64,000 bases of DNA from Haladaptatus caseinilyticus (GTDB lineage: Archaea > Halobacteriota > Halobacteria > Halobacteriales > Haladaptataceae), in contig NZ_CP111036.1 in assembly GCF_026248685.1 (NCBI RefSeq), positions 682,001-746,000 on the forward strand, given 5' to 3'. A program made the translations under genes and the position numbers. Every line of letters begins with the position of its first letter. Positions within the stretch are counted from its first letter, which is position 1. Below the pieces are notes generated by a model that did not search any database, was not told the origin of the DNA, and saw only the letters and a list, made by a program, of their open reading frames with translations. Of the stretch, positions 48,623-53,333 are shown piece by piece.

Positions 48623-48758
48623 TGCATTCTACCAGAGAGAGGCCACAGTTAAAAAGGTATGCAACTGACCTCGTGAAAATGTCAATATTATAATTTAACA
48701 AGCATGGAGCCGGAGGATAAGGCTGATAGCGATCGAACGAGTGAGAACGAGCAAGACG

Positions 48759-49679
48759 ATGTTGACGCGGGCCCGGCGACAGTTGGAGACTGCCTACGAA
48801 CGACATTTGCGGCGGAGTATTTCGGGCGCACCGACCCACGTCGCGGTCATTCAGGACGGAAATCGACGGTACGCGACGAAACAGGGCGAGGAAGCCTCCG
48901 ACGGCCATCGGGAGGGTGCAAAAACGACCGAGCGCGTCCTCGACTGGTGTGAGGATATCGGCGTCGAAGAGCTAACGCTGTACACCTTCTCGACCGAGAA
49001 TTTCGACCGTCCGAAGGACCAACGCGAATCCCTGTTCGACCTGTTGGAGGACAAGCTGTACGAGTTCGCCGACGCGGAACGCGTCCACGAGAGCGGCGTC
49101 TGCATCCGGGCAATCGGTGACGTCCCTGAACTGCCGCCGCGCGTTCGGGATGCCATCGACTACGCCGAAGGACAAACCCGCGACTACGACAATTTCGTCC
49201 TCAACATCGCGCTAGCCTACGGCGGCAGGAACGAACTCCTCGGCGCGGCCCGAGACGTGGCCCGTGAAGTCGAAACGGGTGACCTCTCCCCGGACGACAT
49301 CAACGTCGAAACCATCGAAGCGCGACTCTACGACCGCCCGCTCCGCGACGTGGACCTCATCATCCGAACCGGCGGCGACGAACGAACGAGCAACTTCCTC
49401 CCGTGGCACGCCAACGGCAACGAGGCCGCCGTCTTCTTCTGTACGCCCTACTGGCCCGAGTTCTCGAAGATCGACTTCCTGCGCGCAGTTCGAACCTACG
49501 AATCCCGCGAGCAATCGTTCCACCAGGCGAAAGTCCAGCGCGCGCTGGCACTCGTACGGGCGGTGGGTGGCGTGGAGTTGGACGAAGCGCGCTCGATTAT
49601 CCGGACGTTCCGCGAATACGTGCCGGATGGAGTATCGATGGACGAATTGGAGAGCGGCGAGGAACAAAATTCTGGGTAG
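48759..49679 (+). CDS. uppS: cis-Prenyltransferase (undecaprenyl diphosphate synthase family), catalytic
   Basis: 306 residues. It adds isoprene units to make the long polyprenyl phosphate carrier for surface glycans. The catalytic aspartate is in VAVIQDGNRRYA, and LIIRTGGDERTSNFLPW keeps the RTGG and SNF residues. However, the C-terminal RxG motif of one-subunit enzymes (RERRFGG in E. coli) is replaced by REQSFHQ. This suggests that it needs a partner subunit carrying that motif, such as the one encoded at 51321-51929. The start at 48759 is preferred to a GTG at 48741. Confidence 0.92.
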   Translation: MLTRARRQLETAYERHLRRSISGAPTHVAVIQDGNRRYATKQGEEASDGHREGAKTTERVLDWCEDIGVEELTLYTFSTENFDRPKDQRESLFDLLEDKLYEFADAERVHESGVCIRAIGDVPELPPRVRDAIDYAEGQTRDYDNFVLNIALAYGGRNELLGAARDVAREVETGDLSPDDINVETIEARLYDRPLRDVDLIIRTGGDERTSNFLPWHANGNEAAVFFCTPYWPEFSKIDFLRAVRTYESREQSFHQAKVQRALALVRAVGGVELDEARSIIRTFREYVPDGVSMDELESGEEQNSG

Positions 49680-49713
49680 TATTCTCGAATTCGCGCGGGA
49701 TTCCATTAAAAGA

Positions 49714-49871
49714 ATGAATCGAAGAACAGCAGTGAACACGTGTGGTTCGATGGTCGCATCGATGGGTCTCGCCGGTTGTGCAGTATCCTGACCTCGAACG
49801 ACGAGCCAGTCCCGACATTTGCGGAAAACGATGATACTGTCGAACATTCGGCTACAGTGACAATAAATTAG
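49714..49871 (+). pseudogene. Frameshifted remnant of a small Tat lipoprotein
   Basis: The first frame gives MNRRTAVNTCGSMVASMGLA followed by GCAVS and a stop (49714-49791): twin arginines and a LAGC lipobox in the right places. In another frame, from 49788, the reading continues LTSNDEPVPTFAENDDTVEH and ends at 49871. Restoring one base at about 49786 would join them into a 52-residue lipoprotein. It may instead be a tiny real product ending at the first stop, but that has no mature part. Confidence 0.5.
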
Positions 49872-51193
49872 TTCCCACCCAGATCCACGTTTCGCAGTGT
49901 CGGCATCGGGCCGGGCGTGACGATCGGGACGCCACTCACACGCAAGCGAGCGTCGCTGATCGTCGTCCGTCGCCCGCTCTTTATGGTGATTCCATCCCGC
50001 TTGCCGAGCGGGTGGTGAATCGAGAAATCCTCGAATCTACAGCCGTTCCGTCCTGCGAGAAGGACGGCGGTTCCGTCCGTCGCGGTTCCGGAAATCGAGA
50101 CGTTCTCGCAACTGACGTGAGTGTCCGATGGAAGACGTTTCATGCTCGGCATCGTTTCCGGGTCATACTCGGTCGTCGGCACGCGAATGTTGATGGCCGG
50201 TACGCTGCGATCCGTTCGAATCGTCGTATTCGTGATTTTCGCGCTTCCGAACTGCGTTTCGACCACGATGCCGCCCGAGCTGTACGTCCCGGTCAAGTCC
50301 GTGATGTCGATGGTGCAGTTGTCCACGACTGCGTTCGTCCCTTCCTCCAACCAAATCCCACGCATGTTCGGTTTCGCTTCCGAGTTCTGTGGGTCGTCCA
50401 TACGAACGGTCGCGTTTTCCACCCGTGCTCCGGTCGTTCCGCCACCGATTCGTATCTGGTCGATACCGTTGTTCGCGTAGGTCCCGCCGCTGACCAGGAG
50501 TGGGCCGGAGTGCGGGGATGCATAGAGACCCTCCGCCCAATGTTCCACGTGACAATCGACGAATTTCAGCGATCCATGGCCTGTATGCGTGAAGATCGCG
50601 TTTCCATTCCGCGACCCACCTCGCATGTAGACTCGTTCGACGAGCAGTGATGCGGACCGCTTTGGAACTTCGAGTTCGAGACCGCTCCGTGGGTACGGAC
50701 CACGACTCCCCTTGAACGTCAGATTCCGAAGGACGTTGTTCCCCCCGGCAACCGAGAAAGCGACGACGGGGGCCGCCGTGGGTTCCCGATAGTCGAAGGT
50801 GAACCCATCGAGCACGAGGTCTCGAACCGGTTCCCCGTAAATCCAGTTTCCCTGCTCTCCCGCCGGAACGACGAGCGTGGACTCGTTTCCCACGAGCCCA
50901 CAGTTCGAGTAGTGGGAGAGGTCCAGGTTCGAGAGTCGATACGTTCCGGGGGGAAAGTAGAGCAGGGTTCCATCGCGTATCGACCGATTCACGACCGTAT
51001 CGACCGATTCGGCACTATCCCGGTCCAGTTCCCCGATGTCGATGATCTCCTCGAATCGGTTGCGGTACGGACGGATAACCGACTCTTTGCTCGGTTCGGA
51101 CATCCCGCCACACCCCGCAACCGCCGTCGCGAGCGCGACACCGGCTGCCTGGAGATACGCCCGTCTCCCAGTCCCATCACTCGGTGTCCCCAT
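49868..51193 (-). CDS. Tat lipoprotein with right-handed beta-helix
   Basis: 441 residues. The N-terminus GRRAYLQAAGVALATAVAGC combines twin arginines with a lipobox, so the protein is exported folded and anchored by lipid. After a 45-residue linker, NRSIRDGTLLYFPPGTYRLS starts a parallel beta-helix of pectate-lyase/polysaccharide type, with repeating turns of the form N..V.N.T.....  (for example VDNCTIDITDLTGTYSSGGI). Such proteins bind or cut polysaccharides outside the cell. No clear catalytic residues are recognised. Confidence 0.83.
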   Translation of the reverse strand: MGTPSDGTGRRAYLQAAGVALATAVAGCGGMSEPSKESVIRPYRNRFEEIIDIGELDRDSAESVDTVVNRSIRDGTLLYFPPGTYRLSNLDLSHYSNCGLVGNESTLVVPAGEQGNWIYGEPVRDLVLDGFTFDYREPTAAPVVAFSVAGGNNVLRNLTFKGSRGPYPRSGLELEVPKRSASLLVERVYMRGGSRNGNAIFTHTGHGSLKFVDCHVEHWAEGLYASPHSGPLLVSGGTYANNGIDQIRIGGGTTGARVENATVRMDDPQNSEAKPNMRGIWLEEGTNAVVDNCTIDITDLTGTYSSGGIVVETQFGSAKITNTTIRTDRSVPAINIRVPTTEYDPETMPSMKRLPSDTHVSCENVSISGTATDGTAVLLAGRNGCRFEDFSIHHPLGKRDGITIKSGRRTTISDARLRVSGVPIVTPGPMPTLRNVDLGGN

Positions 51194-51320
51194 CCCGATG
51201 AGTACAACTGTCGTCTTCTATTTCATAATTATGGAACTAGCGGTTTCGAGACCGGCGGAACGGAGTATAAGCAGTCCTTTCGGGACATGTTCGAAAAGGC
51301 GTGTGACTGGATGGCTGTCC

Positions 51321-51929
51321 CTACCGCCCGAACCGTCGCTGTCGATTCTTGTAATCCAAAATTGCACGAAGATAATCCCGTTGGCGGAAATCCCGCCAGT
51401 TCACGTCGGTAAAGTATAGTTCCGAATACACCGACTGCCAGATCATGAAGTCCGACAGGCGTTCCGCCCCGGTTTTGATGACGATGTCGGGGTCGGTCGG
51501 AAACACCAGTCTCGACTCGATGGCCGATTCGTCGATTCCGTCCACCGACACGTCTCCTGCTTTCACGTCCTTTGCAACCGCGCGCACCGCCTGCGCGAAT
51601 TCACTTTTCCCACCGAGTCCGATACTCACCTGAATCGGTGCCTCGGCGGGCGTGAGATCGTCCGGGCCGCGCACCGCGATGTCTCGCGGTGCGCGGATGC
51701 TTTCGAGTTCGCGTTTGAGGGTCGGCACCGCGCCGGAATCCAGCACGCTAACGTAGACGGTGACGCGCTCCGCGCCGTAGTCGAACGTCCAGTCGAAGAA
51801 CGATTCGAGCGTTTCGTAGGCGCCCTGTTCGAGCAGGTCGCGTTCGGTGATGACGACGGCGATGTGACTGGGTGCGTCCGCTCCGTGGCGGCGGACGCGT
51901 GCCGTGAGGTACCGGTCGTAAAGTCCCAC
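51321..51929 (-). CDS. cis-Prenyltransferase-like partner subunit lacking the catalytic DGNRR
   Basis: 202 residues, shorter than true synthases. The fold is recognisable from SHIAVVITERDLLEQGAYET, QVSIGLGGKSEFAQAVRAVA and the C-terminal SDFMIWQSVYSELYFTDVNW followed by RDFRQRDYLRAILDYKNRQRRFGR (read in parts). The position of the catalytic DGN is ITE, so it should not be active alone. It does keep the RFG (RxG) motif that the full-length enzyme nearby lacks. This is the pattern of the NgBR/Nus1 subunit of two-part cis-prenyltransferases. Confidence 0.85.
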   Translation of the reverse strand: MGLYDRYLTARVRRHGADAPSHIAVVITERDLLEQGAYETLESFFDWTFDYGAERVTVYVSVLDSGAVPTLKRELESIRAPRDIAVRGPDDLTPAEAPIQVSIGLGGKSEFAQAVRAVAKDVKAGDVSVDGIDESAIESRLVFPTDPDIVIKTGAERLSDFMIWQSVYSELYFTDVNWRDFRQRDYLRAILDYKNRQRRFGR

Positions 51930-52016: not shown

Positions 52017-53333
52017 GTGACCACGAGCATACGACGGGCGGCAGCGTTCGCGGCAGTCGGAACGGTAGCCCTCGTTGGATCGGTGCTGGTGGCGGGCGTG
52101 GCCGCACTGTTCGCCGCAATCGGTGCGCTCGCGCTTGTCGTTGACGATGGGGTCGTGTTCGACCTGTTCGCACGGCCCAGTGACCGCAGTGAAGGGAGGC
52201 TTCGCGGCCTCGCTGCATTCTCCTTCGCCACCGCAGGGCTGGCCATGCTCGTCATCGTCGTCGATCTACCGACACGCGTGTTCGTCGCCGCCGTCTGTCT
52301 GCTCGTCTATGGAAACCTGGTCGAACAAGTCGCCCGTTCGTGGAGTAATACGGCGATCACCGCGACAGCAGGTTTCACGGTCGGTGGTTTCGTCGCGGCG
52401 TTCGCTGCGCAGGTCGTCGTTTTGACCGTCAGCGATGCACCGATCGATTCGATGATACCCATCCTCATTTTCCTCGCCGCGAGCGGCGCACTCCTAGCAG
52501 GACTGCTCCGCTCCGTCCTGTTCGAGCGCGACGACCCACTGGTGATGTTCTCCGTGGCGCTCCTCCTGTGGCTGTTCGCCGACCTCACCGTGACGGTGAC
52601 GCCGCTCGAAGTCGCGATAGCGATCGCCGTCACGGTCGGCTTTGGCTACATCTCGTGGGCGCTCGATGCCGCTTCCGTAACCGGGATGCTCACCGGCGTT
52701 CTCCTCGCGCTGCTCACCATCGTCCTCGGTGGCTACCCGTGGTTCGCCGTCCTCATCTCGTTTTTCGCGTTGGGGGCGCTGTCCACGAAGTTCCGCTACG
52801 AACAGAAGCGGGAGAACGGCGTCGCGGAAGCCAACGAAGGCGCACGTGGAGGTGGAAACGTTCTCGGAAATGCCGCAGTCGCACTGTTCGCAGTGCTGGC
52901 GTTTGCTGCCAGTGATCGCTTACCCGTCGCCAATACCGTCTTTCTCTTCGCGTTCGCGGGAAGCATCGCAACCGCGATGAGTGACACCCTCTCCAGCGAA
53001 ATCGGGGGCGTGTTCGATAACCCACGGCTCATTACCACGCTCAAACGCGTCGAACCGGGTACCGACGGAGGCGTCACGTGGCAAGGCGAGTTGGCCGGTG
53101 CCCTCGGGGCGATCGTCGTCGCAGTCATCGCCGTCACGTTGTTCGGGACGATCGGACCGCTCGGCGGCATCGTCATCGCGATGGCCGGTATCGGTGGGAT
53201 GACCGTCGACAGCCTCCTCGGTGCGACTATCGAAGGAGAGAGAATCGGGAATCAGAGCGTCAACTTCCTCGCGACGCTCTCGGGAGCGCTCTTGGGTGCG
53301 GGGCTCTCGCTGCTGGTAGGGCTACCGGCGTGA
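52017..53333 (+). CDS. DUF92 membrane protein, polyprenyl/phytyl phosphate kinase-like
   Basis: 438 residues with about a dozen membrane helices. The C-terminal half has the DUF92 (TIGR00297) pattern: GALSTKFRYEQKRENGVAEA, GNAAVALFAVLAFA, SIATAMSDTLSSEIGGVFDN and GMTVDSLLGATIEG. Relatives include phytyl-phosphate kinase VTE6 of plants and proteins grouped with dolichol kinases, so isoprenoid phosphorylation is a reasonable guess next to cis-prenyltransferase genes. Start GTG at 52017, about 26 bases after a TATA-like attaag; the gene end overlaps the next gene by 4 bases (GTGA). Confidence 0.8.
   Translation: MTTSIRRAAAFAAVGTVALVGSVLVAGVAALFAAIGALALVVDDGVVFDLFARPSDRSEGRLRGLAAFSFATAGLAMLVIVVDLPTRVFVAAVCLLVYGNLVEQVARSWSNTAITATAGFTVGGFVAAFAAQVVVLTVSDAPIDSMIPILIFLAASGALLAGLLRSVLFERDDPLVMFSVALLLWLFADLTVTVTPLEVAIAIAVTVGFGYISWALDAASVTGMLTGVLLALLTIVLGGYPWFAVLISFFALGALSTKFRYEQKRENGVAEANEGARGGGNVLGNAAVALFAVLAFAASDRLPVANTVFLFAFAGSIATAMSDTLSSEIGGVFDNPRLITTLKRVEPGTDGGVTWQGELAGALGAIVVAVIAVTLFGTIGPLGGIVIAMAGIGGMTVDSLLGATIEGERIGNQSVNFLATLSGALLGAGLSLLVGLPA

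Follow-up and report, generated by a model that had tools for sequence, protein, structure and literature searches.

Two cis-prenyltransferase paralogs of Haladaptatus caseinilyticus as probable subunits of one divided DHDDS/NgBR-type enzyme

Two genes in the window, a 64,000-nucleotide stretch of the Haladaptatus caseinilyticus genome, very probably encode the two subunits of a single heteromeric cis-prenyltransferase of the DHDDS/NgBR type, which would make the polyprenyl precursor of dolichyl phosphate. The analysis is based on a division of motifs between the two proteins, their fold, their near-universal co-occurrence and a conserved gene order; from these we infer the physical complex, its activity and its product in H. 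caseinilyticus. The system belongs to a known class, the heteromeric DHDDS/NgBR-type cis-prenyltransferases, to which we add a phylum-wide rule, an invariant chain end consisting of RxG plus one residue, and a conserved tail-to-tail gene order. Our literature search found no account of the haloarchaeal pair as one enzyme, of its assay or of a phylum survey; because subscription papers mostly fell outside that search, we claim no priority.

The catalytic gene (48759-49679, forward strand, with a possible alternative upstream GTG start at 48741) encodes a DHDDS/UppS-like protein of 306 residues, assigned from its open reading frame, profile matches and AlphaFold model. In profile searches it scored as a full-length enzyme, with 232 bits against PF01255 and 238 bits against TIGR00055. 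The sequence-only reading had described a protein that keeps DGNRR and RTGG and has REQSFHQ at the RERRFGG site of one-subunit enzymes, and this was borne out: DGNRR occupies residues 33-37 (48855-48869), aligned with E. coli D26-R30, RTGG lies at residues 203-206, and SREQSFHQ takes the RERRFGG site. In the alignment with 127 catalytic proteins, S253-F254-H255 (49515-49523) stand in place of RxG and the motif is absent. The equivalents of E. coli D26, R30, S71, N74, R77, R194, R200 and S202 are all retained in the alignment. The AlphaFold model (pLDDT 88.7) gave human DHDDS (7pb1_A) as its top structural match, with a Z of 28.3 over 249 residues, which is a tie with bacterial UppS (Z 27.9, within 1 Z). 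Past the catalytic fold the model contains a C-terminal helical extension (49524-49679; helices 237-269, 274-287 and 294-304), in which confidence drops to 55-81 and which some relatives lack.

The partner gene (51321-51929, reverse strand, GTG start) encodes an NgBR/NUS1-like accessory subunit of 202 residues, assigned by the same three approaches. PF01255 covers just its C-terminal half (95 bits), and its TIGR00055 score of 88 bits lies under the cut-off of 110. The open reading frame also agrees with the earlier description of ITE for DGN beside a retained RRFG. VITERD stands where a catalytic DGNRR would be, with T-E-R-D at residues 28-31 (51837-51848), and the chain ends in NRQRRFGR, in which RFG-R (51324-51335) represents RxG plus one terminal residue. 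Comparison of the partner and catalytic profiles with hhalign demonstrated clear homology (E 5.8e-39). The AlphaFold model (pLDDT 86.7) resembles cis-prenyltransferases across the family, and its match to human NUS1 (7pay_B; Z 13.0, rmsd 4.5, 179 residues) is tied with those to other cis-prenyltransferases. Likewise, a single-sequence search retrieved the C-terminal halves of UppS proteins, with human NUS1 not among them, and the partner profile scored UppS at 108 bits and NUS1 at 29 bits, a weak match over nearly the full length of NUS1. As a counterpoint to the NgBR comparison, then, NUS1 does not exceed other cis-prenyltransferases as a structural match, and its profile score is below that of UppS. 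The predicted fold comprises the cis-prenyltransferase domain and a short N-terminal helix alone, with the N-terminal membrane domain absent. We rejected the reading of the partner as a decaying catalytic copy, since it has invariant residues of its own (RLSDF-IWQ, SEL-F and RRFG). Among haloarchaeal loci L033-L140, a GTG start was found in 71 of the 75 partner sequences with a recognised start motif; this conserved weaker start might set subunit dosage.

To follow the motifs across relatives, 127 catalytic and 105 partner proteins, collected by profile score and not by motif, were aligned with E. coli UppS as the register. An in-register RxG (E. coli R242-x-G244) occurred in none of the 127 catalytic proteins and in 103 of the 105 partners, the other two having K-x-G. 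Conversely, the D26 and R30 equivalents were present together in 126/127 catalytic proteins and in 0/105 partners; the sole exception has a gap at this position and seems to be a fragment truncated at the edge of its locus. The S71, N74 and R77 equivalents followed the same division, being found in essentially all catalytic proteins and almost no partners. The residues that bind the IPP phosphate, R200 and S202, are retained by most proteins of both types. The glycine of the partner motif is penultimate, with exactly one residue following it, in 105/105 partners. An alignment of haloarchaeal pairs had been proposed earlier as a check on the split, and all haloarchaeal pairs examined display it, as do sampled non-haloarchaeal pairs from most families, including methanogens of the phylum. 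The motif split over these 127 catalytic and 105 partner proteins is not a chance pattern and argues for the divided cis-prenyltransferase that had been put forward.

It had been stated beforehand that an RxG at any other position of the catalytic protein would count against the split. At the sequence level this refutation fails, because no catalytic protein has the motif in register; a search of the catalytic protein and its relatives returned just out-of-register strings near the chain end, none of them haloarchaeal. These were RFG in L068 (shifted by about 2), RSG in L147 (shifted by 1) and RAG in L150. The L068 catalytic subunit (L068:1408-2187) ends WQVRRFGGQKYK, in which R-F-G is displaced from the UppS register by about two positions.

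General family models score both proteins as undecaprenyl diphosphate synthases, each lying above the PF01255 cut-off. This double family match could be taken to mean that each protein is a catalytic enzyme in its own right, with its own product. We consider that extremely improbable, as the equivalents of D26, R30, S71, N74 and R77 are missing in essentially all 105 partners and the H. caseinilyticus partner falls below the TIGR00055 cut-off (88 versus 110 bits). Nor does the pair conform to the homodimeric UppS pattern of TIGR00055, in which a single chain carries both the catalytic residues and RxG.

A PF01255 profile search of the whole H. caseinilyticus genome returned exactly two members, both in the window, and no third cis-prenyltransferase family member. 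In a sample of 145 haloarchaeal genomes from 58 genera, the partner was present in all 145 and the catalytic protein in all but one 120-contig draft. Nearly always there is one copy of each; four genomes carry an additional catalytic protein, which likewise lacks RxG. Across the phylum sample both proteins occurred in 145 of 147 genomes and neither in the other two. The latter, G151 and G159 (family f17), are related drafts, 91% complete, without any PF01255 match, which means either that the genes were lost in assembly or that carrier lipids are made in another way. In a whole-collection scan, the best 80 loci with partner homologues all came apparently from the same phylum. Judged by sequence, the divided enzyme appears near-universal in Halobacteriota and extends beyond both this genome and the haloarchaea.

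In the most likely mechanism, the catalytic subunit would bind the allylic starter and IPP and supply the catalytic residues. The partner, with the same fold and a dead site, would dock on it like the second half of the UppS dimer and thread its C-terminus into the catalytic subunit's active site, giving one active site per heterodimer. The RFG-R tail would then provide an arginine, a glycine backbone amide and the terminal carboxylate to organise the two diphosphate sites. The product would be a cis-polyprenyl diphosphate that is converted to dolichyl phosphate, which carries the sugars for N-glycosylation of the S-layer, a role we propose because this is the known haloarchaeal pathway (PMC5867893). 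The invariant chain end of RxG plus one residue is likely to matter because the terminal carboxylate of human NgBR is functional. In the human complex the active site is completed by the tail of NgBR: the carboxylate of the last NgBR residue touches two catalytic arginines of DHDDS, and either deletion of that residue or addition of one alanine lowers activity (PMC7573591). NgBR G292A increases the KM for IPP approximately sixfold and reduces turnover approximately 12-fold, and DHDDS alone is approximately 400-fold slower than the DHDDS/NgBR complex (PMC7573591). By analogy with human DHDDS, the archaeal catalytic subunit may keep some homodimer activity.

The archaeal pair resembles human DHDDS/NgBR in having a catalytic subunit with DGNRR and without RxG and a partner without catalytic residues, which in both systems ends in RxG plus one residue; DHDDS and the archaeal catalytic subunit also share a helical extension beyond the catalytic fold. 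In contrast to NUS1, the 202-residue archaeal partner has no N-terminal membrane domain, and its sequence is far nearer to UppS than that of NUS1 is. Yeast Nus1, of the Rer2/Nus1 enzyme, differs from the archaeal partner in lacking the canonical RxG. Relative to the human and yeast complexes, a shorter product is expected of the archaeal pair. The E. coli IspU (UppS) homodimer has the same fold, and all of its substrate-binding residues are matched if the two archaeal subunits are pooled. However, bacterial UppS carries D26/R30 and RxG on one chain, whereas the archaeal pair divides them between two.

The closest precedent is Methanosarcina mazei, a member of the same phylum. The two-part methanogen enzyme invoked by the sequence-only reading is real: according to PMC8131916, citing Emi et al. 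2019, MM_0618 and MM_1083 were experimentally shown to form a heteromeric cis-prenyltransferase with a C45-50 product. There too, two cis-prenyltransferase paralogs constitute one enzyme for a glycosyl carrier lipid. The genes for the two subunits lie apart from each other in the Methanosarcina-family (f12) genomes sampled, whereas in H. caseinilyticus they are convergent neighbours beside a DUF92 gene.

M. mazei also possesses MM_0014, a cis-prenyltransferase that is active as a homodimer without RxG, ending instead in TLGG (PMC8131916), and that also accepts DMAPP and alcohols (PMC8131916). In some methanogens an MM_0014-like protein ending in TLGG is likewise present as a third family member. 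By this example, the H. caseinilyticus catalytic protein could be a self-sufficient homodimer, with the partner being either a relic or the regulator of some other process, a reading with which the unlinked state of the pair in 31 of 144 haloarchaea agrees. We regard it as very unlikely. MM_0014 and the catalytic protein share the cis-prenyltransferase fold and the lack of RxG, but MM_0014-type enzymes constitute a separate group in our tree. The co-occurrence of catalytic protein and partner is almost perfect, and the M. mazei pair from the same phylum is heteromeric (PMC8131916). Moreover, the RxG tail of the partner is almost invariant and never lost, which is not expected of a relic.

That tree was built on the C-terminal half and consisted of catalytic and partner proteins, E. 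coli UppS and MM_0014-type enzymes. Each subunit formed one group, and the two groups fell together, separate from the MM_0014-type enzymes and from E. coli UppS. The partner group had modest support (76/43) and included two long-branched members. The tree favours an old duplication behind the two subunits, and this evidence is moderate because of the few columns and the two long branches. A broader proposal, which we consider unlikely, is that the division of the enzyme is ancient in archaea and was inherited by eukaryotes, with DHDDS and NgBR each derived from one of the archaeal subunits; the split would then predate the eukaryotic cell and would not have arisen separately for dolichol synthesis.

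Gene order provides further evidence for a heteromeric enzyme. The earlier reading placed the two genes 1.6 kb apart; they are convergent, with stops separated by 1.64 kb. For 144 haloarchaeal genomes with coordinates for both genes, and with linkage defined as a separation within 8.2 kb, 113 pairs were linked and all 113 were convergent (tail-to-tail), leaving 31 unlinked. These counts are not independent events, because the genomes are related. The common haloarchaeal order runs hemA, a small conserved gene, the catalytic gene, the convergent partner gene, the DUF92 gene and dnaG. In H. caseinilyticus a gene for a beta-helix, pectate-lyase-like protein (49868-51193, reverse strand; PF13229, 39.5 bits) lies between the pair; it is unrelated to the enzyme and not part of it. 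Among 48 haloarchaeal genus representatives it was matched in just 1. The distance separating the convergent genes varies from about 0.16 to 8.2 kb, and together with the rarity of the beta-helix gene this suggests a tolerated insertion site.

On the other side of the partner gene, and divergent from it, lies a gene for a DUF92 membrane protein (PF01940/COG1836; 52017-53333, forward strand). Their starts are 87 bp apart, giving a short shared upstream region. The DUF92 gene was found at the locus in 46/48 haloarchaeal genus representatives and, across the phylum, at 50 of the 80 named loci that surround the partner gene. At these 80 loci the three genes occurred in just three arrangements: DUF92, partner and catalytic genes in that order with the subunits convergent (37), DUF92 and partner (13) or the partner alone (30). 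The DUF92 protein is likely a pathway partner of the cis-prenyltransferase pair. A DUF92-uppS link was proposed in 2015 as pointing to a kinase reaction within isoprenoid metabolism, and COG1836 has cytidylyltransferases and dolichol kinase among its relatives (PMC5898192). An extension compatible with the heteromeric enzyme would make DUF92 either the enzyme of the next pathway step, a kinase for polyprenol or prenyl phosphate, or a third, membrane-located component. Its locus conservation, shared upstream region and COG1836 kinship favour this, but gene order by itself is no proof of a shared pathway step and 30/80 loci have no DUF92 gene nearby; we hold the extension to be conceivable, though not the probable case.

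If the pair is one enzyme, the divided form is the norm in Halobacteriota and not one methanogen's exception. Haloarchaea are a main genetic model for archaeal N-glycosylation, and the carrier-lipid step would become directly testable in Haloferax volcanii. The pair would also offer a partner without a membrane anchor for structural work.

Two variants were noted among the relatives. Partners of family f19 are very short (L189:1363-1869 and L190:1495-1989; at most 164-168 residues), yet end in RRFG plus one residue. In the haloarchaeon G002, a 622-residue open reading frame (L127:1486-3354, reverse strand) carries a divergent PF01255 domain, confined to its C-terminal third, and no DGNR motif.
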